From Echinicola soli (lineage in GTDB: Bacteria > Bacteroidota > Bacteroidia > Cytophagales > Cyclobacteriaceae): a stretch of DNA of 64,000 nucleotides. The notes under the pieces were generated by a model. That model saw only the letters and a list, made by a program, of their open reading frames with translations. It was not told the origin of the DNA and made no database searches. Shown here piece after piece: positions 57,640 to 60,745 of the stretch. The position numbers were made by a program, and so were the translations under genes. Location of the stretch: assembly GCF_006575665.1 (NCBI RefSeq), contig NZ_CP041253.1, positions 563,501-627,500 on the forward strand, given 5' to 3'. Numbering within the stretch: the first letter of the stretch is position 1; every line of letters begins with the position of its first letter.

Positions 57640-57672
57640 AAAAAAAGCCTCCTACTTGAAGAAGCAGGAGGC
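57640..57672 (-). terminator. Rho-independent terminator of the sigma/anti-sigma/FKBP operon
   Basis: GCCTCCTACTT (57647-57657) pairs with GAGCAGGAGGC-type bases (57662-57672) with one mismatch. Read leftward it ends in a T-run (A-run at 57640-57646). Confidence 0.8.
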
Positions 57673-57701
57673 CTAAATCCTATTTGGGTAATAAGCATCT
57701 A

Positions 57702-58661
57702 TCAATTGATGCTTTTGATCTCTGCGGTGAACAATACTGGCGTAAAGGGTCTCAGAATGACAGAAAGAAAGCCTTTTTCATAATAGTCCTCCCGAATAGC
57801 ATCAGGAAGCACCTGTGCGGTATTGCCAAATGCCGATGCCGATGGTGAAATGATCTCCACTTCTGCTCCTTTATGCAAATCCTTAAATCCTATGTTGAGA
57901 AATTGGTAGTTATCCTCGTCGCCTAGCTTGGTGGTCACGGTATTGTCTGTAACCTTTGAGAAAGGGTCCTCTTCGCCCAGCGCAAACATCTCGAACGTAA
58001 AGCCTAGAGTATTGCCATTTTTGCTGGCTTCGGAATTTTCATCTCCAGCATCTACCACTCTCACATATACACCATCTTCCACCTTCTCAAAACCTTCCAG
58101 GTTCTCTTGTGCGATATATTCCTGGATCATATTGTCTTCGATAGCAGCCACTTCTTGGGGCGCAAATATCTTCTCAAAGTGTACCGTAATTTTCATATGG
58201 GAATACTGTGGAAATAACTGACCATAACTGTAATCCGAATACGCCAGATAAGACGGCACATAAAGCACCAATGTCTCTCCTAGCTCTGCCAATGACACTG
58301 ACGAGTTTACAGCTATAGGTGCCAAAGTTTGCTGTCCTACATCATACTTAAACTTAATAGGTGCACCATCCTCTTCGGTATGACTATCGATAAATGACCC
58401 ATCCAAGGTTTCCATCTCATAGTAAATACCTATGATGTCGTCGTCATTAAATTTCTGTCCATCTTCCACATCCTCTTCCCTTGTATAATAATAACCTGCT
58501 GAAGACTGCTCGGCATCAATTCCATTTTGGCTAATATAGTTAGCCAACTCCTGATTTTCGCGCTTCACCTGCTTTTGGTACTCTGTTTCTTTGTCCTGAA
58601 GACAAGAGGACATCAGTGCCGCTAAGGACACTACGAATGCGGTTGTTAAAACTCTTTTCAT
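57702..58661 (-). CDS. Lipoprotein with two FKBP-like peptidyl-prolyl isomerase domains
   Basis: A 319-residue lipoprotein; residues 1-20 form the signal with lipobox LMSSC. Two FKBP-like domains follow, about residues 45-170 and 195-318. Each has the typical opening (SSAGYYYTREEDVEDGQKFNDDDIIGIYYEMETLDGSFIDS; EKVEDGVYVRVVDAGDE...NTLGFTFEMFAL) and a closing strand (MKITVHFEKI; LFTAEIKSIN). Several catalytic aromatic residues of FKBP are not obvious, so it may be a chaperone rather than an isomerase. It follows the anti-sigma gene by about 20 bases in the same operon, suggesting an envelope folding role under sigma control. Confidence 0.8.
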   Translation of the reverse strand: MKRVLTTAFVVSLAALMSSCLQDKETEYQKQVKRENQELANYISQNGIDAEQSSAGYYYTREEDVEDGQKFNDDDIIGIYYEMETLDGSFIDSHTEEDGAPIKFKYDVGQQTLAPIAVNSSVSLAELGETLVLYVPSYLAYSDYSYGQLFPQYSHMKITVHFEKIFAPQEVAAIEDNMIQEYIAQENLEGFEKVEDGVYVRVVDAGDENSEASKNGNTLGFTFEMFALGEEDPFSKVTDNTVTTKLGDEDNYQFLNIGFKDLHKGAEVEIISPSASAFGNTAQVLPDAIREDYYEKGFLSVILRPFTPVLFTAEIKSIN

Positions 58662-58680
58662 GTGTTGGTTAGTTTAATTA

Positions 58681-60066
58681 TTATTTTTTGAACTGAAAAT
58701 TCATTCTCAAATTCACCCCTCCAATTGAAAACTGCTGATTGGTAAAAGTTAGGTTACCAAGGGGCAGTTTATAATACGGCTCTATGGAAAGGAAGGTGCC
58801 ATTGCTAAGGTTATATTCATATCCAAAGGATAAATTCAGCATTTTCCCAAGATCCACATTTGACTGCTCACTATTAGGAGTGTATTCCTGTGAGTATTCT
58901 TGTATAGACTCACTAAATTGTAACGCCCCCGTAAAGTCCTCGGTAAACTTGGATGCCACAGCAAAGGTCTCCACTCCTTTTTGATCAAAATAAATCATGC
59001 TGGAGAGCCCTGTAATCAAGAACACATTGGCCTTGGATTTATCCATTACTTTGTATTTAATGTTTATGGGGATGTCCAGGCCATAATAGCTCATGGTATA
59101 TTCAGACCCCAAATAATCATTGGTAACAGCATATGATGCTTCATTAGGCGCTGCACTGCTCACAGCACGCATTTGCATGGATTCAGGAAGCTTGTTCAAT
59201 GTCTCCGGTTCAAACTGCTGATGGGCATAATTCACCCCTACATCCAGCTTTATCCTATCACTGATTGAAAACTCCGAAACTACCCCTGCCCCCAGTTGCA
59301 TGCCGGATGTAGCATTAGAGGCCGTCTGTGGCCCCGCCTGTACACCCAATCTGACAAGGCTTTCATTACCTTGATCATTCTTGATAATCGTATTGGTATT
59401 TTTAGTGGTCTTCCCATTATTATCTCCTTCTTTCCACTCATCCACCCAGCTTTGCGCTACTTGCTCATCCATATAGGTACTTCTTGGCTGACCAGCCGGA
59501 CGAGTATTGGCTACTGATTTATCAATTTTCGCCTGAGACTCCCTATCCAAACGTGATGCAGCCCCAGCTATCGGATCAGGAGAATGCATAAGGAGCGGAT
59601 CATAGGTATCGAAATCAGGCTCACGCGACAGGGCAATTGGTGCAGAAGTCATCCTTTGGACACCTTTATTGATATCGCTTCTTTCTTCAGAATTCTCCAA
59701 AGATGTTTTAGGGACTGATGCCAGTGCCGGTTTCTTCATTTCTTCCACTTGTCCTTTAGTAGAGTCCTCGATGGGTTTCAGTATCTCATCCAGCTTCTTG
59801 CTCTTTTTGGCAATACTGCCTTTCAGATCAGTCACCCCTTTTTCGATCTCTTTTTCATATGGATAGAAGACAAACAGTAGTGTCATCGACGCAGCAATGG
59901 CAGACATAATAAATGGCCATAACACCAACTTTTTACGCTTGGTCGGTTTGTTGAAATAGACTTGGGAAAATTTTTCCCACTCTACCTGATCAAAGCTCTC
60001 TTCATGGTGGTCGAAGGAGTTCTTGATCTTCTCCACAAGCCGTTTATCGAACTGCTCCTTCATCAT
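58681..60066 (-). CDS. Dual-membrane anti-sigma/beta-barrel fusion protein
   Basis: A 461-residue protein with an unusual architecture. Residues 1-46 are cytoplasmic and helical (KRLVEKIKNSFDHHEESFDQVEWEKFSQVYFNK), as in the sigma-binding end of anti-sigma factors. One inner-membrane helix is at about 47-69 (LVLWPFIMSAIAASMTLLFVFY). A polar, low-complexity linker of about 165 residues follows, long enough to cross the periplasm. Residues 236-461 form an outer-membrane beta-barrel of the PorT/OmpW-like type (VRLGVQAGPQTASN, then LGAGVVSEFSISDRIKLDVGVNYAH, ending GGVNLRMNFQFKK). This matches the dual membrane-spanning anti-sigma (Dma) proteins known from Bacteroides. It overlaps the sigma gene by 23 bases, so it probably holds that sigma factor and senses outer-membrane state. 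Confidence 0.85.
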   Translation of the reverse strand: MMKEQFDKRLVEKIKNSFDHHEESFDQVEWEKFSQVYFNKPTKRKKLVLWPFIMSAIAASMTLLFVFYPYEKEIEKGVTDLKGSIAKKSKKLDEILKPIEDSTKGQVEEMKKPALASVPKTSLENSEERSDINKGVQRMTSAPIALSREPDFDTYDPLLMHSPDPIAGAASRLDRESQAKIDKSVANTRPAGQPRSTYMDEQVAQSWVDEWKEGDNNGKTTKNTNTIIKNDQGNESLVRLGVQAGPQTASNATSGMQLGAGVVSEFSISDRIKLDVGVNYAHQQFEPETLNKLPESMQMRAVSSAAPNEASYAVTNDYLGSEYTMSYYGLDIPINIKYKVMDKSKANVFLITGLSSMIYFDQKGVETFAVASKFTEDFTGALQFSESIQEYSQEYTPNSEQSNVDLGKMLNLSFGYEYNLSNGTFLSIEPYYKLPLGNLTFTNQQFSIGGVNLRMNFQFKK

Positions 60067-60592
60067 TTATTCGGTTTAACTCTGTTATTTTATCTCTTAA
60101 TCGCTGCTTGGCACGTGCCAGGTATGTCCTGCTCGTACTGGCAGGTATATCCAAAGATTCTCCAATCTCATTGTGATTATATCCCTCAATTTCATACATG
60201 TTAAAGATGATTCGCATCACCTCTGGCAAATCCCGAAGGGCTCCGAGGATGTCCTCTTTTGATAGCTCATCGATTATGGAAGCATCGTAGGTTTTTGCCG
60301 ACGCTTTTTCGATTTCCATCACCGCATAGTGCTTGACATTCTTTCGGTAATAGTCTATTGAAGTATTGATCACTATCCTTCGAAACCATGCCTTAAAAGA
60401 GCTGTTTTCCGAATACTGCTGTATCCGATCAAACGCTTTCATAAAGCTGTCGTTCACGATTTCACATGCTTCTTCCCGGCTATTGGAATACCTCAGCGAA
60501 ATGCTCATAGCATACCCGTAAAAATGCTTATAAAGCATTTCCAGGGCTTTGGGCTTACCATCTTTGGCTTCTTGAATGAGGTATTGGTCCAA
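60044..60592 (-). CDS. ECF-type RNA polymerase sigma factor
   Basis: A 182-residue sigma-70-family ECF factor. Sigma region 2 spans residues 10-80 (KALEMLYKHFYGYAMSISLRYSNSREEACEIVNDSFMKAFDRI, then NSSFKAWFRRIVINTSIDYYRK). Region 4 spans about 115-170 (LPEVMRIIFNMYEIEGYNHNEIGESLDIPASTSRTYLARAKQRLRD), with the -35-binding helix. No N-terminal extension is present. Its stop overlaps the start of the dual-membrane anti-sigma gene, the usual sigma-anti-sigma coupling. A regulon cannot be told from the window, but the operon itself is a likely target. Confidence 0.94.
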   Translation of the reverse strand: MDQYLIQEAKDGKPKALEMLYKHFYGYAMSISLRYSNSREEACEIVNDSFMKAFDRIQQYSENSSFKAWFRRIVINTSIDYYRKNVKHYAVMEIEKASAKTYDASIIDELSKEDILGALRDLPEVMRIIFNMYEIEGYNHNEIGESLDIPASTSRTYLARAKQRLRDKITELNRINDEGAVR

Positions 60593-60745
60593 TCGACTGG
60601 ATTTTATATGCTATGTTTACTTACAAGACGACAGCTAATCAAAAAATGCTACAACCTTTAAAAAAATATTTTAACACTCATTTTTTACCACCGTTACAGA
60701 TATACATTAAGGCGATTAAATATCTCCGCCGTAATACGTAAATTA

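Follow-up and report, generated by a model that had tools for sequence, protein, structure and literature searches.

The state of the outer membrane is passed to an extracytoplasmic function (ECF) sigma factor in the RseA/DegS and FecI-FecR-FecA systems, in which the barrel and the anti-sigma factor are separate proteins. Closer to the locus studied here are the dual membrane-spanning anti-sigma (Dma) proteins and the EcfO-Reo pairs. According to passages of PMC13088901, Dma proteins are found solely among Bacteroidota and their cognate sigma factors belong to group ECF21. The Dma1/Das1 and Dma2/Das2 systems of Bacteroides thetaiotaomicron are described there as an anti-sigma factor with an N-terminal sigma-binding part, one membrane helix, a disordered tether and a C-terminal barrel, with an ECF sigma gene as neighbour, and the loss of Dma2 makes its sigma gene rise. 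When Phocaeicola vulgatus meets the toxin BcpT, the sigma factor rises, and surface lipoproteins and a lipopolysaccharide glycosyltransferase are induced (passages of PMC13088901, PMC9308784, and PMC13114119). What Dma and Reo proteins sense is left open in the parts of PMC13088901 and PMC13114119 that were available. Here we describe an operon with an adjacent ECF sigma gene and a presumed sigma-binding part in the same arrangement. It lies in a window of 64,000 nucleotides (the whole stretch of DNA that was analysed), which is part of the 5.55 Mb single-contig genome of Echinicola soli (family Cyclobacteriaceae). We consider it probable that the operon is a self-regulated switch of an ECF sigma factor and a Dma-type anti-sigma factor, which guards the outer surface and has protease inhibitors among its targets.

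The unit was located on the minus strand, where it runs from the promoter (60653-60626) through the genes of the sigma factor, the barrel protein and the FKBP lipoprotein to the terminator (57674-57640). The first-pass annotation, which was made from the letters of the window, had proposed a three-gene ECF sigma operon here, and its coordinates agree with this unit. The features, in window positions, are as follows.

60626..60653, minus strand: predicted autoregulated ECF promoter, TGTAGC-N17-CGTCT, 33 bases 5' of the sigma start codon (motif conservation).
60044..60592, minus strand: ECF sigma factor, 182 amino acids, TTG start (Pfam Sigma70_r2 and Sigma70_r4_2, both over cut-off).
58681..60066, minus strand: Dma-type dual-membrane anti-sigma factor, 461 amino acids (profile search, alignment, gene order, AlphaFold model).
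59932..60063, minus strand: cytoplasmic N-terminal domain of this protein, residues 2-45, presumed sigma-binding (helices in the model, low column entropy).
59869..59931, minus strand: inner-membrane helix, residues 46-66 (model, hydrophobic in the alignment).
59470..59868, minus strand: periplasmic tether, residues 67-199, with a helix at 70-92 and then disorder (predicted local distance difference test score, pLDDT; entropy).
59428..59469, minus strand: conserved periplasmic helix, about residues 200-213 (alignment, model).
58693..59355, minus strand: outer-membrane 8-stranded barrel, residues 238-458 (model, Foldseek, entropy).
57702..58661, minus strand: double-FKBP lipoprotein, 319 amino acids (PF00254, alignment, model with pLDDT 91, Foldseek).
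57640..57674, minus strand: intrinsic terminator, a hairpin and then a T run (folding energy against shuffles).

The terminator hairpin had a folding energy of -20.3 kcal/mol (z -4.83), and none of 200 shuffles was equally good. The sigma and anti-sigma genes overlap by 23 bases, or by 20 if residue 2 of the anti-sigma factor is the start; this second ATG is the conserved start in the alignment.

A search with the barrel protein returned 162 proteins at E <= 1e-3, the query included, and 116 of the 120 listed aligned over 100% of the query. The nearest other protein among the matches listed, from Echinicola rosea, was 79% identical across the barrel protein. Given these matches, the fusion of a barrel to an anti-sigma factor is not a product of chance, and the full-length relatives rule out two separate genes or a frameshift artefact. 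The search for the three-gene order that the first-pass annotation had suggested was also rewarding: the order of sigma gene, barrel gene and double-FKBP gene on one strand recurred in 78 of 78 Cyclobacteriaceae loci. These comprise 48 named records (48/48) and 30 others, some of which are of the same species as named ones. The operon of a sigma factor, a barrel-fused anti-sigma factor and a double-FKBP lipoprotein is real. At three loci from outside the family (L079-L081) the sigma gene was present and no such FKBP gene was found. Genome searches with the Dma-type profile stayed inside Bacteroidota. In a sample of 118 Cyclobacteriaceae genomes, 32 had a match at E <= 1e-10, of which 29 were full, one was in pieces (G038, with sigma and FKBP genes beside the fragmented barrel match) and two were partial (G081 and G082). 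Thirty of the 118, G038 among them, were treated as operon genomes, and most of the family sample is without the operon; G081 was counted there, though a more distant sigma/Dma relative is present in it. The barrel frame seems broken in L030 (G038) and L060 (Cyclobacterium qasimii), which keep the sigma and FKBP genes; both loci are inside the gene-order count, and L060 is among the promoters below.

The promoter could be read in 47 named Cyclobacteriaceae loci, those whose upstream sequence was long enough (L073 was too short). All 47 carry TGTAGC or TGTCGC, a 17-base spacer and CGTCT (or CGTCA, CGTCC or CGTAT) before the sigma gene, and the fixed spacer fits every one of them, L041 included. 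The sigma start codon is TTG at the aligned position (window 60590-60592) in 47/47. The motif was not found at any of the three loci from outside the family, and the aligned place there is without TTG. When such a conserved promoter stands in front of an ECF operon, it usually indicates autoregulation. Chance is ruled out by the 47 of 47 together with the reversed-pattern control given below, and the sigma/anti-sigma/FKBP operon is predicted to be autoregulated. As a separate observation, the conserved weak TTG start may limit the dose of the sigma factor.

The predicted regulon is the new part of this work; neither it nor the promoter was in the first-pass annotation. The exact motif TGTAGC-N17-CGTCT was scanned over 27 operon-bearing genomes, that of E. 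soli included, and gave 131 copies compared with 48 for the reversed pattern. Twenty-two of the copies were operon promoters and 109 lay elsewhere. Among the 101 non-operon sites that were read, 91 had an open frame of at least 60 amino acids starting within 220 bases and 10 had none. The Pfam families of these 91 frames were serpin (21), Kazal (13), LVIVD (8), DUF4397 (6), META (4), GT4-type glycosyltransferase (3), and OMP_b-brl_2 barrel (3), with others fewer. Serine-protease inhibitors therefore made up 34 of the 91 (21 serpins and 13 Kazal proteins). The serpin share is far beyond chance, since the 27 genomes hold 34 serpin rows among about 127,000 genes, a number estimated at an assumed 900 genes per Mb. 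Small lipoprotein genes, some of them clustered (L138, L139, L161, L166, L170-L172), were also noted in G067, G034, G018, and G095, each with a motif copy about 100-126 bases 5' of its start. One site (C1:1799028), inside a glycosidase-like frame, was taken as chance.

To score inhibitor genes, a matrix was made from the operon promoters alone and run over upstream regions of serpin and Kazal genes, not of the LVIVD, DUF4397, and META classes. The cut-offs of 14 (serpin) and 11 (Kazal) were set after the scores were seen; the lowest operon-promoter score was 16.7. Serpins scoring at least 14 were 24 of the 28 tested in operon genomes, compared with 0 of 22 in genomes without the operon. In a first batch of 30 loci, all 17 operon-genome serpins scored at least 16.3 and all 13 others at most -1.6. 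The second batch was drawn from serpins for which the motif had not been noted before, and 7 of 11 from operon genomes reached 14 or more, two others scoring 6.9 and 9.5 at the usual position; none of 9 from other genomes did (highest -0.6). Of the 39 serpin rows of operon genomes, 28 were scored by the matrix; among the remaining 11, an exact motif copy is present in 10, and the fragment G073:C29 was left out; 22 of the 33 rows in other genomes were run. Serpin matches as such were present in 28 of the 30 operon genomes, compared with 22 of the 88 others. For Kazal genes, 28 of 31 rows were run, some rows being domains of one protein, and 8 of 11 with the operon scored at least 11.5 versus 0 of 17 without it (highest 2.3). 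Among the three low rows, one (L243) shows a spacer of 18 bases and another (L247) is situated behind the Kazal gene of L108. As for the background, the matrix reached 16 or more at 48 places in 534 kb of named loci, 47 of which were operon promoters. The same promoter precedes serpin and Kazal genes in operon genomes and, as far as tested, does not in genomes without the operon; other lipoprotein genes have it as well.

In the E. soli genome itself the matrix scored 31.9 for the operon, 25.6 for a serpin lipoprotein, 24.1 for an LVIVD lipoprotein, 19.7 for a glycosyltransferase, and 13.8 for a small lipoprotein. These predicted targets outside the operon are at C1:2689810 for the serpin, C1:5539124 for the LVIVD lipoprotein, C1:3271839 for the glycosyltransferase and C1:1139426 for the small lipoprotein. 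The glycosyltransferase target is likewise placed in both other Echinicola genomes. A loosened motif (TGTMGC-N17-CGTM) was used solely for the small lipoprotein, which has a copy in G111 as well (12.4). The target serpin matched PF00079 with 322 bits (cut-off 27) and has the hinge GTEAAAAT, by which it is predicted to be of the inhibitory type. The inhibitory hinge G[TS]EAAAAT was found in 14 of 15 operon-genome serpins with a readable frame.

To describe the anti-sigma factor, a single-chain AlphaFold model was built on 118 sequences. It contains helices at 3-19 and 27-38, a membrane-type helix at 46-66, a helix at 70-92, a short helix at 201-213, and eight long strands within 238-458, with an extra short strand (387-395) in a loop. 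The mean pLDDT was 67, because the disordered part lowers the average; a large part of the barrel scores 80-97, and its loops are weaker. The top PDB matches of the model in Foldseek were the 8-stranded barrels OmpA and NspA. The Pfam barrel match (PF13568) was under the cut-off, with 23.7 against 27 bits, and the fold model therefore carries the barrel assignment. The chain layout of the first-pass annotation, a cytoplasmic helical end, one inner-membrane helix, a linker and a C-terminal barrel, was borne out by the model, including the C-terminal fold on which that annotation had staked its interpretation. Its polar linker of about 165 residues held in extent and not in kind, since a conserved helix (about 200-213) lies inside it. 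By the model, the architecture is of the published Dma/Reo kind, and membership is assigned by architecture. The PDB profile matches of the barrel protein to calnexin (E 0.01) and ATP synthase subunit b were rejected as low-complexity.

The basic stretch KPTKRKK precedes the inner-membrane helix. The tether had a pLDDT below 50 across 90-197 and an entropy of 3.29 for 93-199. Its length is kept and its sequence is not, the distance from residue 66 to A204 being 134.7 ± 11.6 residues in the 118 sequences. In the helix that follows, A204 occurs in at least 90% of sequences and W211 is invariant. With entropies of 2.78 and 2.10 bits, the two long barrel loops (286-316 and 373-404) are variable; loop 437-447, at 0.62, hardly varies and is among the most conserved parts. 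The side that the loops would face was deduced from the strand order in the model. The N-terminal part, for which no Pfam family and no credible PDB profile match was found, has a mean column entropy of 0.72 bits (residues 2-20) and 1.02 bits (27-38), within the range of the barrel strands (0.46-1.14). This conservation pattern fits a tether and an exposed barrel; sigma binding does not follow from it. In addition, loop 437-447 (window 58726-58758) might serve for docking, and the FKBP lipoprotein could be the partner.

The third gene encodes two FKBP domains in one chain. Its lipid cysteine, Cys20, is invariant in 46 aligned sequences, and two acidic residues stand within the six that follow it, which passages of PMC12578637 give as a mark of surface export. 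Foldseek placed the two-domain eukaryotic FKBP51/52 and bacterial Mip first, and type IX secretion system (T9SS) FKBP was also found. The best PDB sequence match was chain B of 6h3i, the type IX translocon FKBP lipoprotein, with the best stretch at profile positions 7-64. The protein stayed under the NCBIfam equivalog cut-offs of GldI (66 vs 157.6 bits), BamJ (20.6 vs 100), and BamK (32.9 vs 120). In a phylum sample of 296 genomes, with at most 5 or 7 candidates scored per genome so that the counts are lower bounds, a full double-FKBP at E < 1e-50 was found in at least 5. It lies near a sigma/Dma pair in 4 of those 5 (E. soli, G078, G395, and G218); in G218 it is the leading gene, and a single small lipoprotein separates it from the pair. 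In the fifth genome, G285, it is not on the contig of the barrel match seen. The double-FKBP lipoprotein would probably assist in the folding or protection of proteins at the surface, and the Dma barrel may be one of them.

Serpins of relatives without the operon were also compared. In genomes without the operon, 8 of 22 serpins were preceded by a sister motif, T[AC]CAAC-N17-[GT]GTC, and none of the 17 operon-genome serpins of the first batch was; its background was 9 in 424 kb on both strands, of which 7 were those same serpin sites. It also stood before 5 of 24 other sigma genes inspected, each followed by a protein of 476-573 amino acids that begins like a Dma protein and ends in a barrel-like strand. 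G066, G071, and G052 have a sister-motif sigma gene and, among the serpins of the first batch, a sister-motif serpin in the same genome. Weighing against a sister system, the Pfam barrel was over its cut-off in one of the five anti-sigma factors; G077 and G081 have the sister-motif sigma gene and a tested serpin without the motif; and in G079, G086, G090, G065, and G042 the serpin has the motif and no such sigma gene was found among the neighbourhoods inspected. There may therefore be more than one kind of link between serpins and sigma/Dma pairs, which is a lead and not a result. The sister-promoter loci are L200, L201, L203-L206, L223, L330, and L376-L380 (serpins and sigma/anti-sigma pairs). 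The E. soli genome has 45 Sigma70 region-2 matches, of which 21 neighbourhoods were inspected besides that of the window. The sole further Dma-like protein among them, of 413 amino acids with a weak PF13568 match, belongs to a second sigma/Dma-like pair (L260:2260-4033, about 3454259-3456032 of G000:C1), and small lipoproteins follow it.

From these results a mechanism can be proposed. Residues 2-45 would keep the sigma factor bound at the inner membrane, and the tether, together with the barrel and its surface loops, would report an intact outer membrane. Surface proteolysis or failed barrel insertion would destroy or unfold the outer part, and periplasmic and intramembrane proteases would then remove the rest of the anti-sigma factor and free the sigma factor. 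Free sigma factor would transcribe its own operon, giving more sigma factor, fresh anti-sigma factor for the reset and more FKBP lipoprotein. Its other targets would be lipoprotein serpins, Kazal inhibitors and lipoproteins of the LVIVD, DUF4397, and META-domain classes, joined in Echinicola by a glycosyltransferase; the inhibitors and the FKBP lipoprotein would protect the surface. We infer that the signal is damage to the outer surface, probably proteolysis, and that the answer is surface protease inhibitors. The appeal to proteases comes from the two unrelated inhibitor folds among the predicted targets, and that to assembly stress from the FKBP gene and the published EcfO-Reo inducers. One sensor of both is possible, because a cut barrel and one never assembled may look alike from inside.

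Several observations weigh against this switch with protease-inhibitor targets. The signal is read backwards from the targets, and surface inhibitors might equally be needed under general envelope stress. The genomes are related, so the counts are not independent. Two of the 30 operon genomes have no serpin match, and the second serpins of Echinicola G047 and G111 are without the motif (score -4.4). The inhibitor part is thin in E. soli, which has one serpin and no Kazal match, and none of the three Echinicola genomes has a Kazal gene that passes. In these three, the loosened motif showed no excess over the control (15 vs 27, 9 vs 11, and 10 vs 10). Across 47 operons, sigma distances track the barrel (r 0.76) and the FKBP protein (0.75) more than the N-terminal domain (0.42), and the partial correlation of sigma factor and N-terminal domain is weak (r 0.13, p 0.07 given the barrel; r 0.16, p 0.04 given the FKBP protein). 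Finally, neither "serpin" nor "protease inhibitor" appears as a term in the main text of either Phocaeicola paper.

A narrower version would make the system a thermostat of proteolysis at the surface, with the barrel of the anti-sigma factor as bait for the proteases, freed sigma factor raising surface-anchored serpins and Kazal proteins that shut the proteases down, sister pairs of other Cyclobacteriaceae running the same logic from the sister promoter and serpin control handed between Dma systems; we regard it as tentative and on balance doubtful. The barrel could instead be a client of the barrel assembly machinery (BAM), so that failed assembly leads to its degradation and to sigma release, with FKBP as the core output and the inhibitors as part of general envelope repair. 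The constant third gene is an FKBP lipoprotein, weakly similar to the BAM-associated BamK and BamJ of NCBIfam, and passages of the Phocaeicola papers report that many BcpT-induced genes of P. vulgatus are also induced by bacteroidetocin A (Bd-A), which binds BamA, the later paper naming BcpT and Bd-A as inducers of ecfO-reo. However, the BamK and BamJ scores are far under the cut-offs, no BAM gene was among the Pfam families listed for the 91 frames (25 of 37 families), and two unrelated protease-inhibitor folds are the largest target classes. We consider an assembly sensor of this kind unlikely.

A receptor that binds a specific molecule at the surface and signals through the tether, as proposed for Dma2, seems improbable. 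It would agree with the near-fixed loop 437-447 and with the glycan-ligand hypothesis for Dma2 in the discussion of PMC13088901, but the two long loops vary and the predicted targets are mostly not nutrient genes. The control of vesicles, which the first-pass annotation had raised, is very improbable. According to passages of PMC13088901, B. thetaiotaomicron releases more vesicles when Dma1 or Dma2 is lost, but no result of the present analysis ties the operon to vesicles, and no NigD-named family was among those listed for the downstream frames (25 of 37). The self-regulated, surface-guarding switch with inhibitor targets is thus the interpretation that we carry forward. No title or abstract on serpin control by such a sigma factor was found in the part of the open-licence literature that was searched. 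A regulon rich in two unrelated protease-inhibitor folds makes the question of the Dma/Reo signal cheaply testable. It would also supply a regulator for bacterial serpins and a motif by which the regulon can be listed in sequenced relatives.

Compared with the known systems, the single inner-membrane helix, long disordered tether and C-terminal barrel are structural features of Dma proteins as described in passages of PMC13088901. Since Dma is described as confined to Bacteroidota, a member in another lineage of that phylum is not unexpected, and the version with a double-FKBP third gene that the first-pass annotation had suggested is supported in Cyclobacteriaceae by gene order and models. 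Dma2 likewise sits in a three-gene operon, its third gene encoding a DUF4943 protein instead of a double FKBP (passages of PMC13088901). The predicted regulon here differs from the Dma family in its serpins and Kazal inhibitors; the likeness to the Bacteroides proteins is one of architecture. EcfO-Reo of Bacteroides fragilis and Phocaeicola vulgatus also has an anti-sigma factor that crosses all compartments and is a proposed outer-membrane stress sensor (passages of PMC9308784 and PMC13114119). The surface lipoproteins, autoregulation and glycosyltransferase predicted in E. soli repeat what the passages report for P. vulgatus, although the lipoproteins named there are NigD and those here are protease inhibitors, LVIVD, and DUF4397 proteins. 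GldI, the type IX translocon lipoprotein (6h3i), BamJ, and BamK are likewise FKBP-type lipoproteins of the Bacteroidota envelope, whereas the protein described here carries two FKBP domains in one chain and scores under the cut-offs of GldI, BamJ, and BamK. In contrast to RseA/DegS and FecI-FecR-FecA, the barrel and the anti-sigma factor are here joined in one chain.

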